From Fulvivirga lutea (lineage in GTDB: Bacteria; Bacteroidota; Bacteroidia; Cytophagales; Cyclobacteriaceae), in assembly GCF_017068455.1 (NCBI RefSeq), contig NZ_CP070608.1, positions 1,779,488-1,843,487 on the forward strand: a stretch of 64,000 nucleotides of DNA, read 5' to 3'. Shown one piece after another: positions 4,691-31,582 of this stretch (position 1 is its first letter; each line of letters starts with the position of its first letter). Below the pieces are notes generated by a model that saw nothing but the letters and a program-made list of their open reading frames with translations, ran no database searches and was not told the origin of the DNA. The position numbers were made by a program, and so were the translations under genes.

Positions 4691-6153
4691 TGGCCGAATT
4701 AAGAGACATATTATATAAAGTATCACTGATTTCTGCATCAGGAGATATGACTATGGATATTAAATCTGTGTGTTTTGATTCTCGAAAAGTAGAAAAGGGC
4801 TCTTTATTCGTTGCTGTTAAAGGTACTCAAGCAGATGGTCATGATTTTATAACCAAGGCAGTTGCTAAAGGTGCTGTTGCTATTGTTTGCCAAAACTTAC
4901 CAGAGGAAATAAGTTCTTCAGCCACTTATGTTGCCGTAAAGGATAGTGCTGCTGCGCTTGGTATCATTGCTTCTAATTTTTACGGTAACCCTAGCAGTAA
5001 GTTAAAATTGGTGGGTGTTACCGGCACAAATGGTAAAACTACCATCGCCACGCTTTTATTTACGCTTTATCGCAAGTTGGGCTATGCAGTTGGTTTATTA
5101 TCAACAGTAGAGAATAAAATTGATGATGATATTATTCCGGCAAGTCACACAACGCCTGATGCATTACAGTTGAATGAACTGTTAGCAAATATGGTTGATC
5201 GTGGTTGTGATTATGCCTTTATGGAAGTGAGTTCACACGCTTTAGATCAATCCAGAGTGGCCGGAGTGAACTTTACAGGAGCCATTTTCTCCAACATTTC
5301 GCACGACCACTTAGACTATCATAAAACATTTGATGCTTACATCACTGCTAAGAAAAAGTTATTCGATGGATTAAGTAGCGATGCCTTTGCCTTGGTAAAT
5401 TCTGATGATAAGCGTGGAGCCATTATGCTTCAAAACACAAAGGCCAGTAAACAAACTTACGCACTTAAAAGTGTAGCCGATTTTAAGGCTAAAATGATAT
5501 CGAATACTATTCAAGGCATAGAGCTGGAGATTGATAATAAGAATGTTTGGTTCAAGTTGATAGGGGATTTTAACGCCTATAATCTGATGGCTGTATACGG
5601 TGCGGCAGTGTTGCTTGGTGAGGATTCAGAAGATACACTAACGGCACTATCATCTTTAGATGGTGCAGAAGGCCGTTTTGAAGTGGTGGAAACGGATGCA
5701 AAAATCACAGCTATTGTAGATTATGCGCACACTCCGGATGCATTGAAAAATGTATTGGAAACCATCGCTGAATTCAGAACAGGGAATGAGAAAGTAATTA
5801 CAGTGGTAGGCTGTGGCGGCAATAGAGATACTTCGAAGCGACCGCTCATGGCGGCAATTGCCTGCAAACTAAGCGACAAGGTGGTTTTTACATCTGATAA
5901 TCCTCGTGATGAAGATCCCGAAGCAATAATAAAAGATATGAAAGAGGGCATTAGCCCTGCTGATTATAAAAAGACTGTAGTGCTAGTCGATAGAGAAGAA
6001 GCTATAAAAACAGCTTGTCTGTTGGCTGGTGACAATGATATCATATTAGTGGCAGGTAAAGGCCATGAAAAGTATCAGGAGATCAAAGGAGTGAAACACC
6101 CTTTTGATGATAAAGAAGTTTTAGGACGAATGTTAAACCTTTTTGCTAATTAA
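4690..6153 (+). CDS. murE: UDP-MurNAc-L-Ala-D-Glu:meso-diaminopimelate ligase MurE
   Basis: Cytoplasmic Mur ligase adding the third amino acid of the peptidoglycan stem peptide, using ATP. 487 aa, normal length. The P-loop [10 protein letters not shown] ends near residue 118 with Lys116. [15 protein letters not shown] and [13 protein letters not shown] are standard MurE blocks. DNPRDEDP in the C-terminal domain is the signature for meso-diaminopimelate rather than lysine, so the wall should be of the A1gamma type. It starts in the TAATG overlap with ftsI and is followed by mraY after two bases. Confidence 0.97.
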
Positions 6154-6155
6154 CT

Positions 6156-7364
6156 ATGCTCTACTACCTATTTGATTATTTAGAACAACAATATAGTCTG
6201 ATAGGGGCGAGTGTATTTCAATACATCTCGTTCAGAGCCGGCATGGCCGCAGTTTTGTCTTTGGTAATTACCATTTTAATTGGAAAGCAGTTAATTGAAT
6301 TTCTACGGAAAAAGCAAGTTGGCGAAAGCATCAGAGATTTAGGTCTGGAAGGTCAGATGGCCAAAAAAGGTACACCAACCATGGGTGGGCTCATCATTAT
6401 CAGCGCTATTCTTATTCCGGTGCTACTTTTTGCCAGACTAGAGAATGTATATGTCATGCTTCTTATTGGCGTTACACTGGCATTGGGCTTTATCGGCTTT
6501 ATGGATGATTACATTAAAGTATTCAAAAAGAACAAAGAAGGACTGGCCGGTAAATTCAAAATCGTAGGTCAGGTTTCGATAGGCTTAATCGTTGGTCTCA
6601 CTCTTTACTTTAACCAAAACGTGGTGGTGAGAGAGTACGATGAGGCTACAGTAAACGAACAAAATGAAGTAGTAAGAGAATATCAAGATGTAAAATCTAC
6701 TAAAACAACTGTTCCCTTCTTAAAGGATAATGAATTTGATTATGATGCATTAGTGCCGTTTTTATCGCACGACTTCACATGGATTATTTATGTGTTTGTG
6801 GTGATATTCATTATTACTGCTGTTTCTAACGGAGCTAATCTGACCGATGGAATAGATGGGCTTGCTGCCGGCACATCGGCAATCATTGGTCTCACAATAG
6901 CCATTTTCGCTTATCTCTCTGGCCGTGTTGACTTTAGTGATTACCTAAATATTTTACACATCCCTAACCTCAGTGAGGTGGTAATTTTCTGTGCGGCATT
7001 TGTAGGTGCGTGCATTGGTTTCCTTTGGTACAATTCTTATCCAGCACAAGTATTTATGGGTGATACTGGAAGCTTAACGATAGGTGGAGTGATAGCTGTA
7101 CTTGCCCTAATTGTACGTAAAGAATTATTGCTGCCATTATTATGTGGCATCTTCTTAATTGAAAGTCTATCTGTCATGATGCAGGTGGGCTATTTCAAAT
7201 ACACAAAAAAGAAATACGGAGAAGGAAGAAGAATTTTCCTGATGTCTCCATTGCATCATCATTATCAAAAATTAGAAATACATGAATCAAAGATCGTAAC
7301 ACGGTTTTGGATGGTAGGAATATTATTAGCGATTTTGACCCTAGCCACATTGAAATTGAGGTAG
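6156..7364 (+). CDS. mraY: Phospho-MurNAc-pentapeptide transferase MraY
   Basis: Polytopic inner membrane enzyme that makes lipid I from UDP-MurNAc-pentapeptide and undecaprenyl phosphate. Seen: KKGTPTMGG, the Asp pair in FMDDY (117-118), [12 protein letters not shown] (Asp231), MGDTGS (Asp303) and the histidine-rich SPLHHHYQ motif. At 402 aa it is about 40 residues longer than E. coli MraY; the extra length is a hydrophilic insert around residues 150-200 (VVREYDEA to FLSHD), as I recall for Bacteroidota MraY. Its TAG stop is followed at the very next base by a 7-bp repeat tract. Confidence 0.97.
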
Positions 7365-7426
7365 GAATAACGAATAACGAATAACGAAGACTAAAGACTA
7401 ACAACTAACAACTAACAACTAAAAAA
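7365..7426 (+). repeat. Degenerate heptamer tandem repeat, tract 1 (mraY/murD)
   Basis: From the first base after the mraY stop the sequence runs in 7-bp units: GAATAAC three times (7365-7385), a 6-bp unit GAAGAC, TAAAGAC, then TAACAAC three times up to 7419, ending in TAAAAAA (7420-7426). Neighbouring units are identical or differ at one or two bases, as if the motif drifted along the tract. It contains no ATG, GTG or TTG and carries TAA codons in changing frames. It fills the whole mraY-murD gap. Confidence 0.9.
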
Positions 7427-8770
7427 ATAGGACATTTAGTAACCATATTAGGAGCAGGAGAAAGCGGAACAGGAGCAGCCTTACTGGCTAAAGCTAAAGG
7501 GTATGATGTGTTTGTTTCAGACTATGGAATAATAGCCGATAAATACAAGTCTCAATTAGTTGAGAAAGGGATAGAATTTGAAGAAGGTGGTCATTCTAAA
7601 AAGAAGATTCTTGAATCACGTCTAGTTATTAAAAGTCCAGGAATTCCTGAAACAGCCAAAATAGTAAAAAAGATAAGAGAGGCAGGAATAAAGATTGTTG
7701 ATGAAATTGAATTTGCTTTTTCTTATACCAAAGCAAAAATTATCGCCATTACAGGCACTAACGGTAAGACTACCACTACATTATTAACCTATCACCTTTT
7801 AAAAGAGGCTGGTCTGAATGTGGGCTTGGCAGGTAACGTGGGTCATAGTTTGGCTAAGCAGGTAATAGAAGACAAATACGATTACTTCGTGGTAGAGATG
7901 AGCAGCTTCCAATTGGATGGTTGCTATTTATTGAAGCCTTATATATCCATTTTACTCAATATCACTCCAGACCATATGGACAGGTATGAGTATAAAATTG
8001 AGAATTACGTAAGCTCCAAGTTTAGAATTATAAAAGAGGCCGGCCAGAATGATCACTTTATCTATTACGCTGATAATGAGCTGATTGCTGATAAATTATC
8101 AAGATATATTTCGCCTGTAAAGCGAGTTCCAATTACACTCGATGATGTATCTGATCAAATGGTGATGAAAATCAATGACCAAATTCAGATACCTCAAAGT
8201 GAAACAGTGCTTTTAGGTATGCACAATGCCATTAATATGATGTCGGCCATACACGCTGCCTTAATCATGGGCGTAAGTGAAGCTGATATCAGACAAGGAC
8301 TAAAAACCTTTAAAAATGCTCCACATAGAATGGAGTATGTTGATACCATCAATGGCGTACGATTTATCAACGACTCCAAAGCCACGAATGTAGATGCTGT
8401 AAAATATGCGTTGGCAAGCTTTACTGAGCCTTTGGTGTGGATAGCAGGCGGTGTAGATAAAGGCAATGACTACAGCCTGATCATGGACGAAGTAAATGCC
8501 AAAGTAAAAGCACTGGTGTGTCTTGGTAAGGATAACTCGAAATTGAGAGATGCATTTCACAATCAAATAGTGAATATGCTCGAAACAGATAGCATTCATC
8601 AGGCCGTGAGGTCAGCATTGGAATATGCGCAAACGAATGATGTGGTTCTATTATCTCCTGCTTGCGCAAGCTTCGATTTGTTTAAAAACTATGAAGACAG
8701 AGGCGAGCAGTTTAAGCAGGCCGTAAGAGAATTGAAAAATGATTTTGAGACTAAAGCTTTAGAACAATGA
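7427..8770 (+). CDS. murD: UDP-MurNAc-L-alanine:D-glutamate ligase MurD, start codon non-canonical (ATA?)
   Basis: Cytoplasmic Mur ligase adding D-glutamate to UDP-MurNAc-L-Ala. The N-terminal dinucleotide-fold loop LGAGESGTGAALLA is encoded at about 7448-7483, the P-loop [11 protein letters not shown] follows, and DSKATNVDAV and LLSPACASFD are typical later blocks. The first ATG/GTG/TTG in frame is GTG 7508, which would remove that glycine loop and leave 420 aa. Upstream the frame is open only back to a TAA at 7406-7408, and no ATG, GTG or TTG occurs in any frame between the mraY stop and 7430. I therefore place the start at ATA 7427, behind an A-rich stretch, giving 447 aa, the usual length. 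A sequence error or lost ATG is the alternative. The stop overlaps the ftsW ATG (ATGA). Confidence 0.9.
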   Translation: MGHLVTILGAGESGTGAALLAKAKGYDVFVSDYGIIADKYKSQLVEKGIEFEEGGHSKKKILESRLVIKSPGIPETAKIVKKIREAGIKIVDEIEFAFSYTKAKIIAITGTNGKTTTTLLTYHLLKEAGLNVGLAGNVGHSLAKQVIEDKYDYFVVEMSSFQLDGCYLLKPYISILLNITPDHMDRYEYKIENYVSSKFRIIKEAGQNDHFIYYADNELIADKLSRYISPVKRVPITLDDVSDQMVMKINDQIQIPQSETVLLGMHNAINMMSAIHAALIMGVSEADIRQGLKTFKNAPHRMEYVDTINGVRFINDSKATNVDAVKYALASFTEPLVWIAGGVDKGNDYSLIMDEVNAKVKALVCLGKDNSKLRDAFHNQIVNMLETDSIHQAVRSALEYAQTNDVVLLSPACASFDLFKNYEDRGEQFKQAVRELKNDFETKALEQ

Positions 8771-9927
8771 ATAAGATAAAAGCTTGGGTAGACGATAATT
8801 TAAAAGGCGATCCGGTAATCTGGGTAGTAGTATTTGCACTATCGCTTATTAGTATTTTGGTAGTGTATAGTGCCACCGGAACATTGGCGTTTAAGCGAAT
8901 GATCAATCCGGAATCTTACCTGATTAAACACACTCTATTAGTGTTTGTAGGCTTGGGAGCTATGTGGTTTGCCCATAAGATCGACTACAGATACTATTCT
9001 AAACTATCAAGATTTGCATTGTGGATTAGTGTCCCGTTGTTGATTTATACATTTACCAACGGTGTTAGCTTGAATAATGCCTCTCGTTGGATTCAGTTAC
9101 CAATTATCAATGCATCTTTTCAGCCTTCTGATCTAGCCAGTTTGGCCCTGATAACCAGCTTGGCAAGTATGCTTTCCAAGCGTCAGCAGAACATTGAAGA
9201 CTTTAAAGAGTCTTTCATTCCAATATTAATCTGGTGTGGAGTGATATGCGGCTTAATTGCATTAACCAACTTATCTTCTGCCATCTTACTTTTTGCTACT
9301 TGCATGCTAATCATGTTCATAGGTAGGGTGCCAATCAAATATCTGGCAATGCTTGTATTTGTAGGTATTATGGCTGGTAGCGTAGCATTAACTTTTGGTG
9401 TAAGAGGCGAAACAGCTAAGAACAGGATTGAAAGCTTTATTAATGGTGATGAACTACCATTCCAGGCAAAACATGCACGTATAGCAGTAGCTACAGGTGG
9501 CATTTTAGGCAAAGGTCCGGGTAATAGCCAACAAAGAAATATTCTTCCACACCCATATTCCGATTTCGTTTATGCCATTATCGTTGAGGAATATGGCCTT
9601 GTGGGAGGGGTAGTAGTACTCATTCTATACTTAATTCTTTTAGCCAGAGGCATGAAGGCAGTCACCAATAGTGAACGAGCGTTTGGTGGCTTGCTTTCGG
9701 CCGGATTAAGCTTTGCACTAGTACTGCAAGCCATGGTAAACATGGGTGTAGTGGTGGGCTTGGGTCCAATTACAGGTTTGCCACTTCCATTAATCAGTAT
9801 GGGTGGTACTTCCTTATTATTTACAGGACTTTCAATCGGAATTATTTTAAGCGTGAGCAGAGGCGAGACTGACTCATCATGGGAGAGTGCAGGTGGAGAA
9901 ATTAAAAACATAGCAAGGGCAGCGTGA
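8767..9927 (+). CDS. ftsW: Septal peptidoglycan glycosyltransferase FtsW (SEDS family)
   Basis: Polytopic membrane SEDS glycosyltransferase that polymerises lipid II at the septum with the FtsI transpeptidase encoded upstream. 386 aa, about ten membrane segments. Recognisable blocks: NNASRWIQLP near residue 105, the FQPSDLASLALI segment, the GKGPGNSQQRNILPHPYSDFVYAIIVEEYG block, and GLPLPLISMGGTSLL near the C-terminus. It starts in an ATGA overlap with murD. A heptamer repeat tract begins directly after its TGA stop. Confidence 0.96.
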   Translation: MNKIKAWVDDNLKGDPVIWVVVFALSLISILVVYSATGTLAFKRMINPESYLIKHTLLVFVGLGAMWFAHKIDYRYYSKLSRFALWISVPLLIYTFTNGVSLNNASRWIQLPIINASFQPSDLASLALITSLASMLSKRQQNIEDFKESFIPILIWCGVICGLIALTNLSSAILLFATCMLIMFIGRVPIKYLAMLVFVGIMAGSVALTFGVRGETAKNRIESFINGDELPFQAKHARIAVATGGILGKGPGNSQQRNILPHPYSDFVYAIIVEEYGLVGGVVVLILYLILLARGMKAVTNSERAFGGLLSAGLSFALVLQAMVNMGVVVGLGPITGLPLPLISMGGTSLLFTGLSIGIILSVSRGETDSSWESAGGEIKNIARAA

Positions 9928-10018
9928 CAATGAACAATTAACAATGAGCAATTAACTAATAACTAATAACCAATAACCAATAACCAGAAACCAGAAACCA
10001 GAAACAAGTAACCAGTTG
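9928..10018 (+). repeat. Degenerate heptamer tandem repeat, tract 2 (ftsW/murG)
   Basis: Thirteen consecutive units in strict 7-bp register from the first base after the ftsW stop: CAATGAA, CAATTAA, CAATGAG, CAATTAA, CTAATAA twice, CCAATAA twice, CCAGAAA three times, CAAGTAA, CCAGTTG. The motif drifts stepwise with hardly a break in period. The last unit contains the TTG used as the murG start codon at 10016. TAA/TGA triplets occur in several frames. The tract fills the whole ftsW-murG gap. Confidence 0.92.
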
Positions 10019-11122
10019 ACCAGTAAAGAACCATATCGATTCATCATAAGCGGAGGCGGAACAGGCGGACATATTTATCCTGCATTGGCGGTGGCTAATG
10101 AGATAAAAAGTCAGCACCCTGATTCTGAAATTTTGTTTGTAGGTGCTCAGGGTAAAATGGAGATGACCAAAGTGCCAGAGGCAGGTTATAAAATTGTAGG
10201 GCTTTGGATTAGCGGATTGCAACGAAGAGTAACCATTCAAAATTTACTTTTACCATTTAAAGTTATTCATAGTTTCTTCTCGGCAATTGGTATTGTTAAA
10301 AAGTTCAGCCCTAATGCAGTACTTGGTTTTGGCGGCTATGCAAGTGGGCCCATGATGTTTGCGGCAAATTCTCGTAAAGTGCCAACCTTAATTCAAGAGC
10401 AGAATTCTTATGCAGGCCTAACTAACAAGAAGTTTGGTAAGAAGGCTAAAAGCATTTGTGTGGCTTATGAGGGGATGGAGCAATATTTCCCTAAAGATGT
10501 TATCAAGTTTACTGGCAACCCGGTGAGAAGCGATATTCTTTCTTTAGAAAACAAAAGAGATGAGGCTATTCAGCATTTTGAATTAGATCCGAATAAGAAA
10601 ACAGTATTAGTGTTGGGTGGAAGCCTTGGAGCCAGAACAATCAATAGAAGTATTGCCGGTCATTTAGATAAGGTAGTGAAAGGCGGGTTCCAGGTGCTAT
10701 GGCAGACAGGCAGATTTTATTATAACGATATGAAAAATGTGGCTGCTGATTATGGTAGCAACATAAAAGTGCACGAGTTTATTAAGAGAATGGATTTGGC
10801 ATATGCCTCGGCAGATGTAGTGGTTTCCAGAGCCGGGGCTTTGTCCATTTCCGAACTGTGCCTGGTAGGCAAACCTACCATTCTGGTGCCTTCACCCAAT
10901 GTGGCTGAAGATCATCAAACAAAAAATGCGAGGTCGCTATGTACAAACGGTGCAGCTATTTTAATCCGTGATAGTGAATCAGAAAAAAGCCTGATGAACA
11001 ATGTAGTAGACCTTTTAGGTGATAAAGAAAAACAAGCGAGTCTTAGCGCAGCCCTTAAAAAAATGGGGAAGCCTAATGCTACAAAAGATATAGTATCAGA
11101 AGTAATGCGAATTATCAATTGA
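10016..11122 (+). CDS. murG: Lipid II synthase MurG (UDP-GlcNAc transferase), TTG start
   Basis: Membrane-associated GT-B glycosyltransferase that adds GlcNAc to lipid I to make lipid II. The N-terminal motif ISGGGTGGHIYPALAVA begins at residue 10. Further blocks: LGFGGYASGP, IQEQNSYAG, GGSLGAR, and the C-terminal SRAGALSISELCLVG for UDP-GlcNAc binding. 368 aa is normal. No ATG exists before the glycine-rich loop; TTG 10016, inside the last heptamer unit, gives a nine-residue lead that fits the family. It ends in a four-base TTGA overlap with murC. Confidence 0.96.
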   Translation: MTSKEPYRFIISGGGTGGHIYPALAVANEIKSQHPDSEILFVGAQGKMEMTKVPEAGYKIVGLWISGLQRRVTIQNLLLPFKVIHSFFSAIGIVKKFSPNAVLGFGGYASGPMMFAANSRKVPTLIQEQNSYAGLTNKKFGKKAKSICVAYEGMEQYFPKDVIKFTGNPVRSDILSLENKRDEAIQHFELDPNKKTVLVLGGSLGARTINRSIAGHLDKVVKGGFQVLWQTGRFYYNDMKNVAADYGSNIKVHEFIKRMDLAYASADVVVSRAGALSISELCLVGKPTILVPSPNVAEDHQTKNARSLCTNGAAILIRDSESEKSLMNNVVDLLGDKEKQASLSAALKKMGKPNATKDIVSEVMRIIN

Positions 11123-12513
11123 AATTAGATAAATACCATAACGTCTATTTCATCGGTATCGGAGGTATCGGGATGAGTGCTTTGGCCAGATGGTTTAACC
11201 ATAACGGCTTTGCAGTATCCGGCTACGACCGTACGCCTACTTCTTTAACCAACAAGCTTATTGAGGAAGGAATAGCTATTCATTTTGATGATGATGTAGC
11301 CAATATTCCTGATGCGGTAAAACAAAACAAAGAGGAGTCATTAATTATCATTACTCCAGCCATACCTAAGCATCAAAAAGAGCTAAATTATTTTAAAGAT
11401 AATGGCTTTGAGCTGTTCAAGCGCTCGCAGGTGCTGGGCATGATTTCCTCAGAATTTCATTTGGTAGCAGTTGCGGGAACGCACGGAAAAACTACGACCT
11501 CTTCCATGATCGCCCACTTGCTGAAACATGCAGGCAGAGATATCACGGCATTTTTAGGAGGCATTGCTACCAATTATGAGTCTAACTACATCGCCAACCA
11601 AAACAAAGACGGTAAGTCTATTGCCGTGGTGGAAGCAGATGAGTTTGACAGATCGTTTTTAACGCTTCATCCGGATGTGGCAGTTGTTACTTCTGCTGAT
11701 GCAGACCATCTGGATATCTATGGAGATAAAACACAATTAGAAGATTCTTTTAAGGCGTTTATCAAGCAGGTGAAAGCCTCTGGTAAACTCTTTATTAATG
11801 AAAAAATAGCCAAAGAATTAGTAAGTGATGATTATAATCGATCAGCACATACCTATGGCATAAACCGGGGGCAATTTTTTGCCAGCAATATTACCATGTG
11901 TAATGGTTTTTTTGAATTCAATTATTGTGATGAGCAGTGCAATATTAATAATCTTATGCTTGGCGTTCCCGGTTTTCATAATGTTGAAAATGCTACTGTA
12001 GCCATTGCTGTAGCCCTTGATTTAGGGCTGAGCCCAGAGGAAGTAAGGGCGGGCATTGAAAGCTACCGTGGTGTAAAAAGAAGATTTGAGTACATCATCA
12101 AATCAGAGAAAATAATTTTTGTGGATGACTATGCTCACCACCCAACGGAGATAGAGTCTTTTCTTAAATCACTCAAATTCATGTACCCTGATAAAAAGGT
12201 GACGGCCATATTTCAGCCGCACCTTTTTACCAGAACAAGAGATTTTGTAGACGGCTTTGCCGAAAGCCTTGACCTGGCTGATGAAGTGATATTACTGGAT
12301 ATCTATCCGGCAAGGGAAGAGCCTATTGAAGGGGTAACATCAAAAATTATTTACGACAAGATGCAAACGGAGAAGGTATTGATCAACAAAGAAGAGTTGC
12401 TCAACCACCTTGAAAATGAAAACTATGAAGTGATCGCCACCATCGGTGCGGGCGATATCGACAAACTGGTAGAACCGATTAAAGAACATTTAAACGAGAA
12501 ATACCATGCTTAA
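11119..12513 (+). CDS. murC: UDP-MurNAc:L-alanine ligase MurC, TTG start
   Basis: Cytoplasmic ligase adding the first amino acid (L-Ala) to UDP-MurNAc. Seen: N-terminal IGIGGIGMSALARW for UDP-MurNAc binding, P-loop VAGTHGKTTT, VVEADEFDRSFL, and DDYAHHPTEIE before the C-terminal domain. 464 aa, typical. No in-frame ATG precedes the N-terminal motif, so TTG 11119 in the TTGA overlap with murG is the start; coupled reinitiation is likely. The end overlaps ftsQ by 8 bases. Confidence 0.96.
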   Translation: MKLDKYHNVYFIGIGGIGMSALARWFNHNGFAVSGYDRTPTSLTNKLIEEGIAIHFDDDVANIPDAVKQNKEESLIIITPAIPKHQKELNYFKDNGFELFKRSQVLGMISSEFHLVAVAGTHGKTTTSSMIAHLLKHAGRDITAFLGGIATNYESNYIANQNKDGKSIAVVEADEFDRSFLTLHPDVAVVTSADADHLDIYGDKTQLEDSFKAFIKQVKASGKLFINEKIAKELVSDDYNRSAHTYGINRGQFFASNITMCNGFFEFNYCDEQCNINNLMLGVPGFHNVENATVAIAVALDLGLSPEEVRAGIESYRGVKRRFEYIIKSEKIIFVDDYAHHPTEIESFLKSLKFMYPDKKVTAIFQPHLFTRTRDFVDGFAESLDLADEVILLDIYPAREEPIEGVTSKIIYDKMQTEKVLINKEELLNHLENENYEVIATIGAGDIDKLVEPIKEHLNEKYHA

Positions 12514-13270
12514 AAAACTGAAAATAGGTAAAGGGGTGAAGGTTGCTGTGGTATCCATTTTGATGCTCTCCCTAATCAGCTTTGGTAGCAGAAAGCAAGA
12601 GGGCGAAAAGTGTCAGGATATTATTATCAAGCTCACGAATCAGCAAAACAACTTCTTTATAGATGAAAATGACATCATGCGAATGATGACAAAAAATGGT
12701 GAAGAAGTACTGCTGGGCACACATTTTAAAGACATCAAACTAAAAGAGATTGAAGGCCGAGTGAAAACTCAAAAGTTTATTAAAAAAGCCGAGATCTATA
12801 AAGACTTAAAAGGCAATCTGCTGGTAAACGCAGAGTTAAGAAGACCTTTTGCCAGAATACTGGAGCCTGGTAAGGCCAATGGTTATGTGGCATTGGACGG
12901 TGCGATTCTTCCAACATCTACAAAATACACATCGAGAGCTGTGATTTTAAGTGGAAGCTATATGAAAGAGATGATGCAGCACGATTTAACAGAAACGGAA
13001 GAGGGGCAGAAAATTTATGAGCTGCTACAATTTATCTATAACGATAAGTTTTGGAGCGCTCAGATAGCACAAATCGATATAAGCAAGGATTTGTATGTAA
13101 CGCTTTACCCACAGGTAACAAAGCAGATTGTGGAGTTTGGGAAGCCTGAGGATGTGAAGCAGAAGTTTAAGAAGCTAAAGGCTTTTTACAAAAAGGTACT
13201 CCCTCAGAAGGGGTGGAATACCTACAGCAGAATTAACCTGGAATATAAAGATCAGGTGATAGCTGAATAA
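12506..13270 (+). CDS. ftsQ: Cell division protein FtsQ
   Basis: Bitopic division protein linking the early and late divisome through FtsL/FtsB. 254 aa: short basic cytoplasmic tail, one membrane segment around residues 12-28, then a POTRA-like region (about 38-105, IIIKLTNQQNNFFIDENDI onward) and a beta-rich FtsQ domain with VALDGAILP and a YSRINLEY end. The family is poorly conserved, but the position between murC and ftsA and the domain plan are standard. The start lies 8 bases inside murC. A heptamer repeat tract follows its stop at once. Confidence 0.92.
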   Translation: MLKKLKIGKGVKVAVVSILMLSLISFGSRKQEGEKCQDIIIKLTNQQNNFFIDENDIMRMMTKNGEEVLLGTHFKDIKLKEIEGRVKTQKFIKKAEIYKDLKGNLLVNAELRRPFARILEPGKANGYVALDGAILPTSTKYTSRAVILSGSYMKEMMQHDLTETEEGQKIYELLQFIYNDKFWSAQIAQIDISKDLYVTLYPQVTKQIVEFGKPEDVKQKFKKLKAFYKKVLPQKGWNTYSRINLEYKDQVIAE

Positions 13271-13340
13271 AGCTATAAGCCGTAAGCTGTAAGCTCTAAG
13301 CAAAAGGCTTGAAGCTTGTAGCTAATAGCTTAAAGCTTAG
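13271..13340 (+). repeat. Degenerate heptamer tandem repeat, tract 3 (ftsQ/ftsA)
   Basis: Exactly ten 7-bp units from the first base after the ftsQ stop: AGCTATA, AGCCGTA, AGCTGTA, AGCTCTA, AGCAAAA, GGCTTGA, AGCTTGT, AGCTAAT, AGCTTAA, AGCTTAG. The core AGCT is kept while the last three bases vary. Junctions create TAA or TAG repeatedly. Because the core is palindromic the tract also has weak inverted-repeat character. The remaining 45 bases up to the ftsA ATG are A-rich, without a clear promoter. Confidence 0.9.
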
Positions 13341-13385
13341 ACGAAAAGAAAGTATTAAACAACCACTAAAAATAGATTTACAACC

Positions 13386-14687
13386 ATGGAAAATGACAAA
13401 ATCGTAGTCGGACTCGATATTGGAACCACAAAAATTTGCGCAATTGTGGGTCGCAAGAATGAGTTTGGCAAACTTGAAGTTTTGGGAATGGGTAAAGCTG
13501 AATCGGATGGTGTAATCCGGGGCATCGTTACCAACATTGACAAAACTGTGAATGCAATTGAAAAGGCCGTGAAAGAGGCTGAAGACCAATCGGGTATCGA
13601 TATCCGGGTGGTAAACGTTGGAATCGCAGGCCAGCACATTAAAAGCTCAATTCATCATGGAAGCATTACGCGAAACACCAATGATGATGAGATTACCATT
13701 GAAGACATTAACCGTCTGAACAACGATATGTATCGTATCGTAATTCCACCGGGCAGCGAGATTATTCACGTGATGCCTCAGGATTATACGGTAGATTATG
13801 AAGACGGCATTAAAGACCCTGTAGGTATGAGTGGCGTTAAGCTGGAAGCTGACTTCCATGTGATTACCGCTCAAACCAACGCCATCAATAACATTAACAA
13901 ATGTGTGAAGCGTGCAGGCTTAGAAATTGAAAATTTAATACTAGAGCCGCTAGCATCTAGCCTGGCAGTATTGAGTGACGAAGAAAAAGAAGCAGGCATC
14001 TGCCTGATTGATATTGGGGGTGGTACAACAGATATCGCTATTTTCCATGACAATATCATCCGCCATACGGCTGTAATACCTTTCGGAGGTAACATCATTA
14101 CATCAGACATAAAGCAGGGTTGCATGGTAATGCAGCACCAGGCGGAATTGCTGAAAACGAAATTTGGTAAGGCCATTGGCGAAGAAGCGAGCCCTAACGA
14201 GATCGTGGCGATACCCGGTATTAGAAACAGGCCGCCAAAAGAAATTTCTATCCGCAACCTGGCCAATATCATTGAAGCCAGAATGGAAGAGATCGTGGAG
14301 CTCGCTCACACAGAAATTATTACTTCAGGGTTTGAGAACAGACTGGCTGGCGGTATAGTAATTACCGGTGGTGGTTCTCAGCTAAACAGCCTGAAGCAAC
14401 TGGTAGAATACATGACAGGCATGGATGCGCGCATCGGGTACCCGAACGAGCATTTAGGCAAAAGTAAAGTGGATAGCGTGAAGAGCCCGATGTACGCAAC
14501 ATCAGTAGGGCTGGTACTTAGCGGATTCAGAGCTTTGGATAACAGAGAAGACAGATACAAAGAAGCTAAGGGAGGCGGTAAGTTAACTGCAAAGAAACGC
14601 GAAGCCGGAGGTGATTTTTTCGCGAAAATCTTAAATAAAACCAAAGGCCTTTTAATTGACGACTTAGATGGTAGTAAAGACTACTAA
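13386..14687 (+). CDS. ftsA: Cell division protein FtsA
   Basis: Actin-fold ATPase that tethers FtsZ to the membrane and signals to the late divisome. 433 aa. Seen: phosphate-1 motif VGLDIGTTKICAIVG at residues 8-22, LIDIGGGTTDIAIF as phosphate-2 and GIVITGGGSQL as the adenosine motif. The C-terminus ends with basic/hydrophobic KILNKTKGLLIDDL, plausible as the membrane-targeting amphipathic helix. It is separated from ftsQ by repeat tract 3 and from ftsZ by 33 bases. Confidence 0.97.
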   Translation: MENDKIVVGLDIGTTKICAIVGRKNEFGKLEVLGMGKAESDGVIRGIVTNIDKTVNAIEKAVKEAEDQSGIDIRVVNVGIAGQHIKSSIHHGSITRNTNDDEITIEDINRLNNDMYRIVIPPGSEIIHVMPQDYTVDYEDGIKDPVGMSGVKLEADFHVITAQTNAINNINKCVKRAGLEIENLILEPLASSLAVLSDEEKEAGICLIDIGGGTTDIAIFHDNIIRHTAVIPFGGNIITSDIKQGCMVMQHQAELLKTKFGKAIGEEASPNEIVAIPGIRNRPPKEISIRNLANIIEARMEEIVELAHTEIITSGFENRLAGGIVITGGGSQLNSLKQLVEYMTGMDARIGYPNEHLGKSKVDSVKSPMYATSVGLVLSGFRALDNREDRYKEAKGGGKLTAKKREAGGDFFAKILNKTKGLLIDDLDGSKDY

Positions 14688-14720
14688 TCAAAAAATTAGA
14701 AACCACTAAATACTAAAGTA

Positions 14721-16277
14721 ATGGAAGATAATGGATATAAATTCGAAATTCCCAAACACCATAAATCGATTATAAAGGTGATTGGTGTAGGTGGGGGCGG
14801 TAGCAATGCCGTAAACTTCATGTACAGCCAAGGCATTAAAGATGTTGAGTTTGTAGTATGTAACACCGATTCACAAGCATTAAAATCTAGCTCAGTACCT
14901 GCAAAAATTCAGATAGGGGTAAACCTTACGGAAGGTTTAGGTGCGGGTGCTAACCCTGAAGTTGGTAAAAATGCCGCTTTAGAGAGCAAAGAAGATATAA
15001 GAGACCTGTTAGGCACAGATACCAAAATGGTATTTATTACTGCCGGAATGGGTGGAGGTACAGGAACGGGTGCGGCTCCTGTTATTGCCAAAATTGCCAA
15101 AGAGATGGACATCCTTACTGTAGGGATTGTTACTTCTCCGTTTGGTTTTGAAGGTAAAAAGAAAAGAGCACAGGCCGAGGAAGGTATTAAAGCACTTCGT
15201 GAGAATTGCGATACCGTACTGGTAATATTAAACGACAAGCTGAGAGAAATCCATGGTAACCTCTCTATAGGAAGTGCGTTTGGCCAGGCCGATAATGTAT
15301 TAACAACTGCTGCTAAAGGTATAGCAGAGATTATTACCGTTGCCGGATATGTGAACGTGGATTTCCAGGATGTGCGCACCGTAATGTACAATGCAGGTGC
15401 TGCCGTAATGGGTTCTGCACTTACTAAAGGCGACAATAGAGCACGCAGAGCAGCAGAAGAAGCCTTAGCTTCTCCATTGTTGGATAACAGAGACATTCTT
15501 GGAGCTCAGAAAATCTTGCTTTCGATTATCTCGGGAGATCAGGCAGAGCTACAGATGGATGAACTCACTGAAATTACCGAATACATTCAGGAGCAGGCAG
15601 GTGAAGATGCTGAGGTGATATTTGGCCACGGTGTAGACCCTAGCCTGGAAGAAAGCATTCGCGTAACGGTTATTGCTACGGGTTTTGACAGAAGCTATTC
15701 GCATGCTGAGCCTATTAGCTCACCAAATAATAATAACACACAGGCCGATGAGCGCAAGGTGTTTGACTTAGAAAAGCCACAGCAGATAAACATGTTTGAA
15801 ACTGATAACTCAGTGAATAACGATAACAGCTCTGAGCTTACTTCTCGCACTACTGAAGAAGAGGAAGAAGATTCTTTCTCGGCACGCTACTCATTTGCCA
15901 AGCCAGAATCTAGAATAGAAGACGATGAAGATGGCGATGATGGTTTGTTTGATGAGCTGGACGATGAGTTTGAAATAGTAGGAGATGATGAAGGCGACCA
16001 GCAAATAAATGCAGATGGCATGATGGACGTGCGCAGCACGAAAGAGCGCCTTAAAAAGCAAGCTGAAGAACGTTTAAACCGATTAAAAGGAAACAACAAA
16101 GCGGAGATGAATACGCATGAGTTTAAGGAAAAATTAGATGTACCCGCATTTTTGCGCAAAGATGTGAAGCTATCTAACGTGCCCCACTCTAGCGAGCCGC
16201 ATGTGAGTAAGTATAATTTAAATGACGATAATCAGATCTTGGGTAACAACAAGTTCTTACACGATAACGTGGACTAG
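14721..16277 (+). CDS. ftsZ: Cell division GTPase FtsZ
   Basis: Tubulin-like GTPase forming the Z ring. GTP-binding motifs: IGVGGGGSNAVNFM at residues 20-33 and the tubulin signature GGGTGTGAAP at about 112-121. At 518 aa it is much longer than E. coli FtsZ (383): after the globular domain (to about 330) comes a long, very acidic linker with repeated D/E runs, a basic patch (KERLKKQAEERLNRLK), then VPAFLRK resembling the conserved C-terminal FtsA-binding peptide, followed by about 40 extra polar residues. Last gene of the cluster, followed by a terminator. Confidence 0.97.
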   Translation: MEDNGYKFEIPKHHKSIIKVIGVGGGGSNAVNFMYSQGIKDVEFVVCNTDSQALKSSSVPAKIQIGVNLTEGLGAGANPEVGKNAALESKEDIRDLLGTDTKMVFITAGMGGGTGTGAAPVIAKIAKEMDILTVGIVTSPFGFEGKKKRAQAEEGIKALRENCDTVLVILNDKLREIHGNLSIGSAFGQADNVLTTAAKGIAEIITVAGYVNVDFQDVRTVMYNAGAAVMGSALTKGDNRARRAAEEALASPLLDNRDILGAQKILLSIISGDQAELQMDELTEITEYIQEQAGEDAEVIFGHGVDPSLEESIRVTVIATGFDRSYSHAEPISSPNNNNTQADERKVFDLEKPQQINMFETDNSVNNDNSSELTSRTTEEEEEDSFSARYSFAKPESRIEDDEDGDDGLFDELDDEFEIVGDDEGDQQINADGMMDVRSTKERLKKQAEERLNRLKGNNKAEMNTHEFKEKLDVPAFLRKDVKLSNVPHSSEPHVSKYNLNDDNQILGNNKFLHDNVD

Positions 16278-31160: not shown

Positions 31161-31350
31161 TTGAGTCAATTTAAAGTCATCCTGAGGCACGAAAGACCTT
31201 CCTAAGTTAGAACAACGATTACGAAAAGTATGGTCAATCCAACTTAGTAAGTTGCCTCCTTATGTCGGCATGACTGGCTCGATAAATATAGGCATCCTCA
31301 TTCTCGGACTATGTCTCAAAGACCGAAAAAGTCATTCTTCATAGACTAAT
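31161..31350. repeat. 190-bp direct repeat, copy 1
   Basis: Matches 31393-31582 over 190 bp without gaps, with nine substitutions by my count. It contains inverted parts CCTAAGTT/AACTTAG and GTCAT/ATGAC that could form a cruciform. Non-coding. Fills part of the gap 31042-31647, where I see no gene. Confidence 0.88.
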
Positions 31351-31392
31351 ACAGTAATAGGTGGACACAGACCAAGAATAAGTCTAGCCATG

Positions 31393-31582
31393 TTGAGCCA
31401 ATTTAAAGTCATCCTGAGGCACGAAGGACCTTCCTAAGTTAGAACAACGAGTACGAAAAGTATGGTCAATCCAACTTAGTAAGATGCCTCCTGATGTCGG
31501 CATGACAGGCTCGATAAATATAAGCATCCTCATTCTCGGACTGTGTCTCAAAGACCGAAAAAGTCATTCTTCATAGGCTAAT
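31393..31582. repeat. 190-bp direct repeat, copy 2
   Basis: Second copy, same orientation, offset 232 bp from copy 1 with a 42-bp spacer that is not part of the repeat. Ends about 65 bases before the stop of the M3 peptidase gene. Confidence 0.88.

Follow-up and report, generated by a model that had tools for sequence, protein, structure and literature searches.

Period-7 tracts in the dcw cluster of Fulvivirga lutea: probable members of a class of small intervening-sequence-like elements within operons

Introduction

Heptamer repeats, among them the short tandemly repeated repetitive (STRR) sequences, have been described in cyanobacteria, Xanthomonas and Beggiatoaceae, and passages of two papers also list five Bacteroidetes and report inverted pairs in Xanthomonas (PMC4679880, PMC4692102). 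The intervening sequences (IVSs) of 23S rRNA in Coxiella and Leptospira, in turn, possess complementary borders and an S23p/intervening-sequence protein (IVP) open reading frame (ORF) and are excised by RNase III, the protein being a five-fold toroid of four-helix bundles with a function given as not known in the relevant passages of PMC4990558. Heptamer repeats and IVSs with S23p are thus both on record. Here, a stretch of 64,000 nucleotides (nt) from Fulvivirga lutea (contig NZ_CP070608.1, positions 1,779,488 to 1,843,487; hereafter the window) is considered, in whose dcw cluster three gaps between genes hold tandem units of seven nucleotides (heptads). These tracts are probably part of a widely distributed group of small IVS-like elements located between stop and start codons inside operons, whose complete form carries a PF05635 gene. 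PF05635 is S23, the '23S rRNA intervening-sequence protein' (IVP). The family is similar in sequence and structure to Avd, an accessory protein of diversity-generating retroelements, according to passages of PMC10053308.

Like 23S rRNA IVSs, the elements described below have complementary borders that fold into a stem-loop, enclose a reading frame of the same family and are sporadically distributed, but they occupy junctions of protein genes rather than rRNA, their arms have a period of 7 or 8 nt, and their IVP shows protein-level conservation, in contrast to the Coxiella ORF, for which decay is described in PMC4990558. With the STRR and other heptamer repeats, they have in common the 7-nt intergenic tandem units, here likewise found beyond chance, a site that is kept while the length varies among relatives, and the inverted pairs known from Xanthomonas. 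In contrast, the pertinent passages of PMC4692102 and PMC4679880 deal with fixed unit sequences and with slippage or G-quadruplexes and do not refer to a PF05635 gene; none of the terms 'XCC0516', '23S' and 'four helix' occurs in PMC4692102. The units of the window tracts also differ from described ones such as TAACTGA and GGGAATC. In the open-access literature searched, no account was found of a link between PF05635 and heptads, of arms that surround operonic IVP genes across several phyla, or of a split between periods 7 and 8 by lineage.

Heptad tracts in the dcw cluster

The gene names of the cluster are backed by Pfam except for ftsQ, which gave no Pfam match at 1e-5. An earlier note on this DNA, made from the sequence alone, had reported three period-7 tracts with locus-specific units in the mraY/murD, ftsW/murG and ftsQ/ftsA gaps, and Tandem Repeats Finder together with a period scan recovered all of them, with calls at 7365-7425, at 9927-10016, and at 13270-13301 plus 13307-13339. 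The features are as follows.

7365..7425, + strand: one-arm period-7 tract in the mraY/murD gap, with units passing from GAATAAC through GACTAAA to AACAACT; unstructured as RNA
9925..10022, + strand: one-arm period-7 tract in the ftsW/murG gap, including the ftsW stop (9925-9927) and the murG TTG start (10016-10018); unstructured as RNA
13270..13301, + strand: upstream arm of the hairpin at ftsQ/ftsA, with units of the form AGCTNNN; base-paired when folded as RNA
13302..13306, + strand: loop of the ftsQ/ftsA hairpin, with no gene inside
13307..13338 (scan call to 13339), + strand: downstream arm of the ftsQ/ftsA hairpin, from the period scan and the RNA fold

Each tract runs from the base directly after the upstream ORF, which ends at 7364 (mraY), 9927 (ftsW) or 13270 (ftsQ), and between rsmH and ftsZ every other junction either overlaps or spans no more than 33 nt, both as the note had it. 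Its statement that the tracts fill the long gaps requires some trimming: all three gaps (62, 88 and 115 nt in the above order) hold tracts, but only about 60% of the ftsQ/ftsA gap is occupied by period 7. The gradual drift of units was partly right as well, but elsewhere in the genome units alternate from a small set, for example, AACT followed by GAG, GAA, GTG or AAG. At ftsW/murG, even the stop codon of ftsW keeps the register of the units (TGACAAT GAACAAT TAACAAT), and the final units extend into the TTG start of murG.

Unlike the other two tracts, that of ftsQ/ftsA is an inverted pair, forming 28 base pairs with a folding energy of -31.1 kcal/mol (z -4.5; equalled by none of 200 shuffles). 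In the region 6000-15000 of the window, no known RNA family was matched in Rfam at gathering scores. A stable stem is also predicted by RNA folding at the sucB/lpdA junction (see below), and such stems would suit transcription terminators or attenuators that are repetitive by chance. However, the hairpins stand between genes of one operon, no T run follows the one at ftsQ/ftsA, and two of the three window tracts have no stem at all, which leaves this explanation scarcely credible.

The genus comparison covered 15 species, including this one. In G010 and G005, whose MurC proteins are the most similar to that of this genome, the mraY/murD gap is 1 nt and the ftsW/murG gap 0 nt, so both tracts were either gained toward this genome or lost in the G010/G005 line. 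Such a comparison had been proposed in the earlier note. Other species of the genus have tracts at the same junctions, each with its own units. One of them (G002) has tracts at all three, and at ftsW/murG and ftsQ/ftsA its units are of the AGTT type after the stop and of the AACT type before the start, that is, an inverted pair. In another (G001), the mraY/murD gap contains a PF05635 gene between heptad tracts.

Two further observations concern the mraY/murD junction. First, murD apparently begins at a non-standard codon, ATA at 7427-7429, there being no ATG, GTG or TTG between the last in-frame stop and the N-terminal domain of MurD. Across the dcw loci of relatives compared for this codon (L055-L068), G010 and G005 likewise have ATA, G001, G009, G011, G012 and G013 have ATC, and seven others have ATG. 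Second, a reading frame of about 45 codons, similar across species and absent in this genome, is present in the mraY/murD gaps of L062, L064 and L066.

PF05635 genes and their arms

PF05635 genes are present in 13 of the 15 genus members and in 157 of the 198 genomes of a phylum sample. A total of 141 IVP loci were analyzed, 51 from the genus and 90 from the phylum, the latter drawn from the best-scoring part of the list, so that weak IVPs are under-represented. When 110 nt on each side of the gene were scored for periodicity (cut-off of at least 8), period 7 appeared upstream at 59 and downstream at 50 of the loci, period 8 at 18 and 17, and periods 5, 6 and 9-12 at no more than 4. Counting either flank, 79 loci have period 7 and 25 have period 8 without 7, with at most 5 for each other period from 5 to 12; for control genes from this genome, the dcw loci and other Bacteroidota, the numbers are 54/1302 and 20/1302 for periods 7 and 8, respectively. 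The two flanks of a locus are, moreover, complementary to each other, with a mean local score of 15.4 versus 8.6 for mispaired loci, and 56 of the 141 exceed the 99% point, which only 0.15% of control genes do. Small co-directional genes of 90-170 codons provide a fairer control, among which period 7 occurs in 4/92 (three of these four adjoin tracts from the genome scan described below), period 8 in 0/92 and complementarity in 1/92. At least one of the three signals is found at 111 of the 141 IVP loci. PF05635 genes are thus tied to periodic arms that are complementary in a locus-specific manner.

Inverted arms, intergenic sites and presence or absence between species would also fit relics of DNA transposons resembling miniature inverted-repeat transposable elements (MITEs), with terminal inverted repeats moved by a transposase. 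Yet the arms match inside one locus and not across loci, and no terminal inverted repeat is common to the copies, so an origin of this kind is hardly plausible. A separate case is L102:12300-12950, where a 118-codon gene that is not IVP-like is flanked on both sides by an inverted heptad pair.

A co-directional reading frame ends within 260 nt upstream of 124/141 IVPs and another starts within 260 nt downstream of 119/141, a weak point in favor of the model below, because the same holds for both neighbors of 740 among the 1153 control genes. G outnumbers C in 66 of 77 upstream arms, and C outnumbers G in 54 of 65 downstream arms; median arm lengths are 28.5-35.5 nt depending on side and period. 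The upstream arm starts at a median of 4.5 nt past the preceding stop (n = 66), scattered around it, and the downstream arm stops a median of 9 nt short of the following ATG (n = 55). A layout in which the variable positions of a unit are always contiguous is weak (0.77 versus 0.67 expected, for 32 of 87 tracts) and was not used. In folds of three whole elements, the arms pair around the gene (z -4.1, -3.7 and -6.2). The IVP protein is under purifying selection, with strong conservation at the protein level, because the ratio of nonsynonymous to synonymous rates (dN/dS) is 0.03-0.12 in the 11 measurable of 15 ungapped close IVP pairs, dS exceeding 1 in four; the structures 2gsc and 2rld in the PDB contain five chains each.

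The positions of the arms bear on a further proposal of the earlier note, namely, that the tracts are seeded at stop codons and would serve as barriers to translation in an otherwise coupled operon. In the window, they do adjoin the stop exactly, the TAA units of the first two tracts put stops in all frames, and the sister junctions of 0-1 nt are such that coupling would be broken by a tract. Seeding finds no support, however, as arm starts at IVP loci scatter around the stop; in sister species without a tract, most gaps measure 0-5 or 28-29 nt, so that any growth or insertion there must abut the stop. A barrier is not supported either: while GGGAGTA arrays read TAG, those of AGGGAAC and CCAGAAA have no stop triplet in any of the frames, it is the complementarity of the arms that is kept, and the ftsQ/ftsA tract is a stable hairpin. 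Together, seeding and a barrier function are judged highly improbable.

Period and IVP lineage

On a tree of IVPs with 126 loci labeled by period, only 11 changes between 7 and 8 are needed, compared with a minimum of 19 and a mean of 25.5 after shuffling, although these looser labels were adopted after a stricter set of 89 loci and yielded the stronger outcome. When each of the 71 insertion sites is represented by a single locus, the changes number 10.2 versus 14.3 when shuffled, a value reached by 0.5% of shuffles. The nearest labeled IVP at a different site has the same period for 93 of 98 period-7 loci and 19 of 28 period-8 loci. Both periods occur within three groups of loci whose flanking genes are similar, and in the two of them for which the tree position was checked, the IVPs lie on different branches. 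A pattern search for four successive AACT units, which found period 7 in 82/198 genomes and period 8 in 21/198, added four octamer arrays about 20-90 nt from an IVP (G079, G060, G141 and G067), independently of the locus sample. The period thus tracks the IVP lineage. In addition, 14 of the 21 genomes with at least two labeled loci hold both periods, and for this reason the period cannot be dictated solely by the polymerase of the host.

These data have to be set against plain replication slippage, which would ascribe the arrays to a polymerase contact of about 7 nt, as proposed by Mrazek et al. 2007 and reported in passages of PMC4679880 and PMC4692102, with arrays arising in unconstrained gaps that IVP genes merely happen to share. 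The predominance of period 7 in this genome, the varying units, the array lengths that differ between sisters, the one-armed and unstructured state of the first two window tracts and the many arrays without an IVP all agree with it. On the other hand, small co-directional genes in like gaps fall far below IVPs in both periodicity and complementarity, a fixed 7-nt footprint as the sole cause is weakened by the mixed periods within genomes, which follow the IVP lineage, and slippage alone would not preserve the complementarity of two arms. Slippage, which the earlier note had suggested alongside templated copying, is likely within arrays but fails to explain units of 7 and 8 at different loci of one genome, and as a full account it is considered unlikely.

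Empty, arm-only and intact states at the same junction

Two junctions were followed through the genus. At sucB/lpdA (14 species with a match), the gap is 3 nt in G007, G008, G009 and G011, 28 nt in G003, G006 and G014, and 67 nt in G004; G000 (99 nt) and G005 (121 nt) have a heptad hairpin without a gene, and G010 and G013 have an IVP. In G002 and G012, a gap of about 449 nt contains no IVP match, and the upstream gene call is probably wrong. For lpdA of G001, there was no match at the cut-off used, and the IVP locus L143 of that genome precedes a sequence resembling the start of lpdA.

At fadB/fadA (15 species), the upstream gene is of the enoyl-CoA hydratase type according to Pfam and the downstream gene is presumably a thiolase. 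An IVP is present in G003, G005, G009, G010, G011, G012, G013 and G014, and short gaps resembling the arm-only state occur in G001, G002 and G004, as judged by eye and by hairpin score, their period scores being 6.5-7.5 and hence below the cut-off of 8. The gap is 29 nt in G000 and, ambiguously, 84 nt in G006. G007 and G008, both without an IVP match anywhere in the genome, have a gap of about 170 nt with arm-like ends that is possibly an IVP remnant, the best IVP match in G008 having an E of 0.56 at a non-matching position. The fadB/fadA IVPs of the genus come from three or more branches of the tree (L142 with L144; L145 with L146; L150-L152 with L206), and therefore the junction has been filled more than once. 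A given junction can thus be empty in one sister species, hold only arms in another and carry an intact IVP in a third, and arm-only hairpins occupy sites where relatives hold an IVP gene.

Distribution

The genome was sampled over 1.264 Mb, comprising the window and 60 stretches of 20 kb, for periods 4 to 16. Period 7 accounts for 14 segments, any other period for at most 7, and period 7 for none in a third-order Markov control. These 14 segments fall in 12 gaps, three in the dcw cluster and nine elsewhere, and lie between genes or overlap gene ends. In the dcw loci of the genus relatives (15 loci from 14 relatives), there are 7 period-7 segments versus 0 in the control; in 23 loci of more distant Bacteroidota, there are 2 versus 1. 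The 7-bp enrichment beyond these junctions, for which the earlier note had proposed a scan, is borne out in the genome and the genus. The share of genomes with AACT heptads climbs with the number of IVPs, from 6 of 41 without an IVP to 19 of 29 with ten or more, and the correlation over 198 genomes (Spearman 0.41) is uncorrected for phylogeny and supportive only.

Outside Bacteroidota, a tblastn search of plasmids returned 29 records, mostly cyanobacterial, of which 19 were examined. Among 16 cyanobacterial plasmid IVPs, not all of them independent loci, 15 have periodic arms (period 7 in 12 and period 8 in three), and in 10 the arms are complementary past the cut-off used for Bacteroidota; control genes of two of these plasmids gave 1/67, 2/67 and 1/67 for period 7, period 8 and complementarity, respectively. 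The other records examined include an Azospirillum locus with period 7 on one side, a Gemmatirosa locus with period 8 on both sides, and a Riemerella locus with period 7 and complementary arms. Heptads as a peculiarity of one genus are ruled out by the Bacteroidota-wide and cyanobacterial cases, and the likeness to cyanobacterial heptamer repeats, noticed early on, rests on the shared neighbor gene, PF05635. Three of the 16 cyanobacterial plasmid IVPs (L333, L335 and L341) are situated inside CRISPR operons, twice between cas6 and cas4 and once between cas10 and a cmr3-type gene.

A proposed IVS-like element

In its full form, the proposed element would consist of an arm with G over C and a period of 7 (or 8), a PF05635 four-helix-bundle gene in the direction of the operon, and a complementary arm with C over G that stops just before the next gene. 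The arms may form a long stem in the operon transcript, as in the IVSs of 23S rRNA, and RNase III would cut it; insertion between stop and start codons could be tolerated because the stem can be cut in this way. Since the unit length is preferred by lineage, we infer a direct role for the IVP, whose toroid may contact the units of the arms, each protein lineage reading, or helping to copy, one unit length. Slippage would then lengthen and shorten the arrays. Loss of the gene could leave hairpins such as that at ftsQ/ftsA, and loss of one arm, or independent slippage, could give the first two window tracts, so that the ftsQ/ftsA hairpin would represent the arm-only form and the tracts at mraY/murD and ftsW/murG one-arm forms.

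Compared with the described IVSs, the window tracts lie between protein genes, not inside an rRNA gene, and the survey of junctions with IVPs covered sucB/lpdA, fadB/fadA and mraY/murD. Complementary borders are seen at the 56 IVP loci counted above and in the ftsQ/ftsA tract, and are lacking in the other two window tracts, while an S23p/IVP ORF in the loop is found in the related elements and in none of the window tracts, there being no PF05635 gene in the window.

Several observations weigh against this proposal. The four IVPs of the genome are all weak cases and all outside the window, none of the relatives examined has an IVP at ftsW/murG or ftsQ/ftsA, and the packing of three tracts into 6 kb is unexplained by the favored model. 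None of the three signals is found at 30 of the 141 IVP loci or at the cyanobacterial locus L337. With the stricter labels and one locus per site, the period changes number 8 versus 10.2 (p 0.043), which is marginal. The case for decay at fadB/fadA is weak because the remnant in G007 is a 14-residue match to IVP residues 1-14 with an E of 0.077. AACT heptads also exist in six of the 41 genomes that have no IVP. Finally, G002 has 7 IVPs but 494 three-unit AACT heptad matches (248 forward and 246 reverse), compared with at most 40 in each of the other 14 genus genomes, from which it follows that heptad arrays can increase beyond the number of IVPs.

A wider proposition, put forward tentatively, is that the heptamer and octamer repeats of Bacteroidota and Cyanobacteriota, and perhaps those of Xanthomonas and Beggiatoaceae, may be complete elements or solo arms of one IVS-like class, in which the toroidal S23/IVP protein reads or helps write the repeats, its lineage fixes 7 or 8 nt, and the unit sequence drifts while the arms stay complementary. 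This would join two orphan observations, the bacterial heptamer repeats put down to slippage and the pentameric toroid of S23/IVP. If true, the repeats acquire a partner gene and a candidate substrate emerges for the protein, binding with a periodicity of 7 or 8 nt according to lineage is predicted, and many intergenic repeats would be scars of one class of elements that interrupts essential operons.

Apart from the dcw cluster, the window contains a further tandem repeat at 31161-31582, with a unit of 232 bp in 1.8 copies at 95% match, in which the motif GTCATCCTGAGGCACGAAAG resembles a dispersed repeat.

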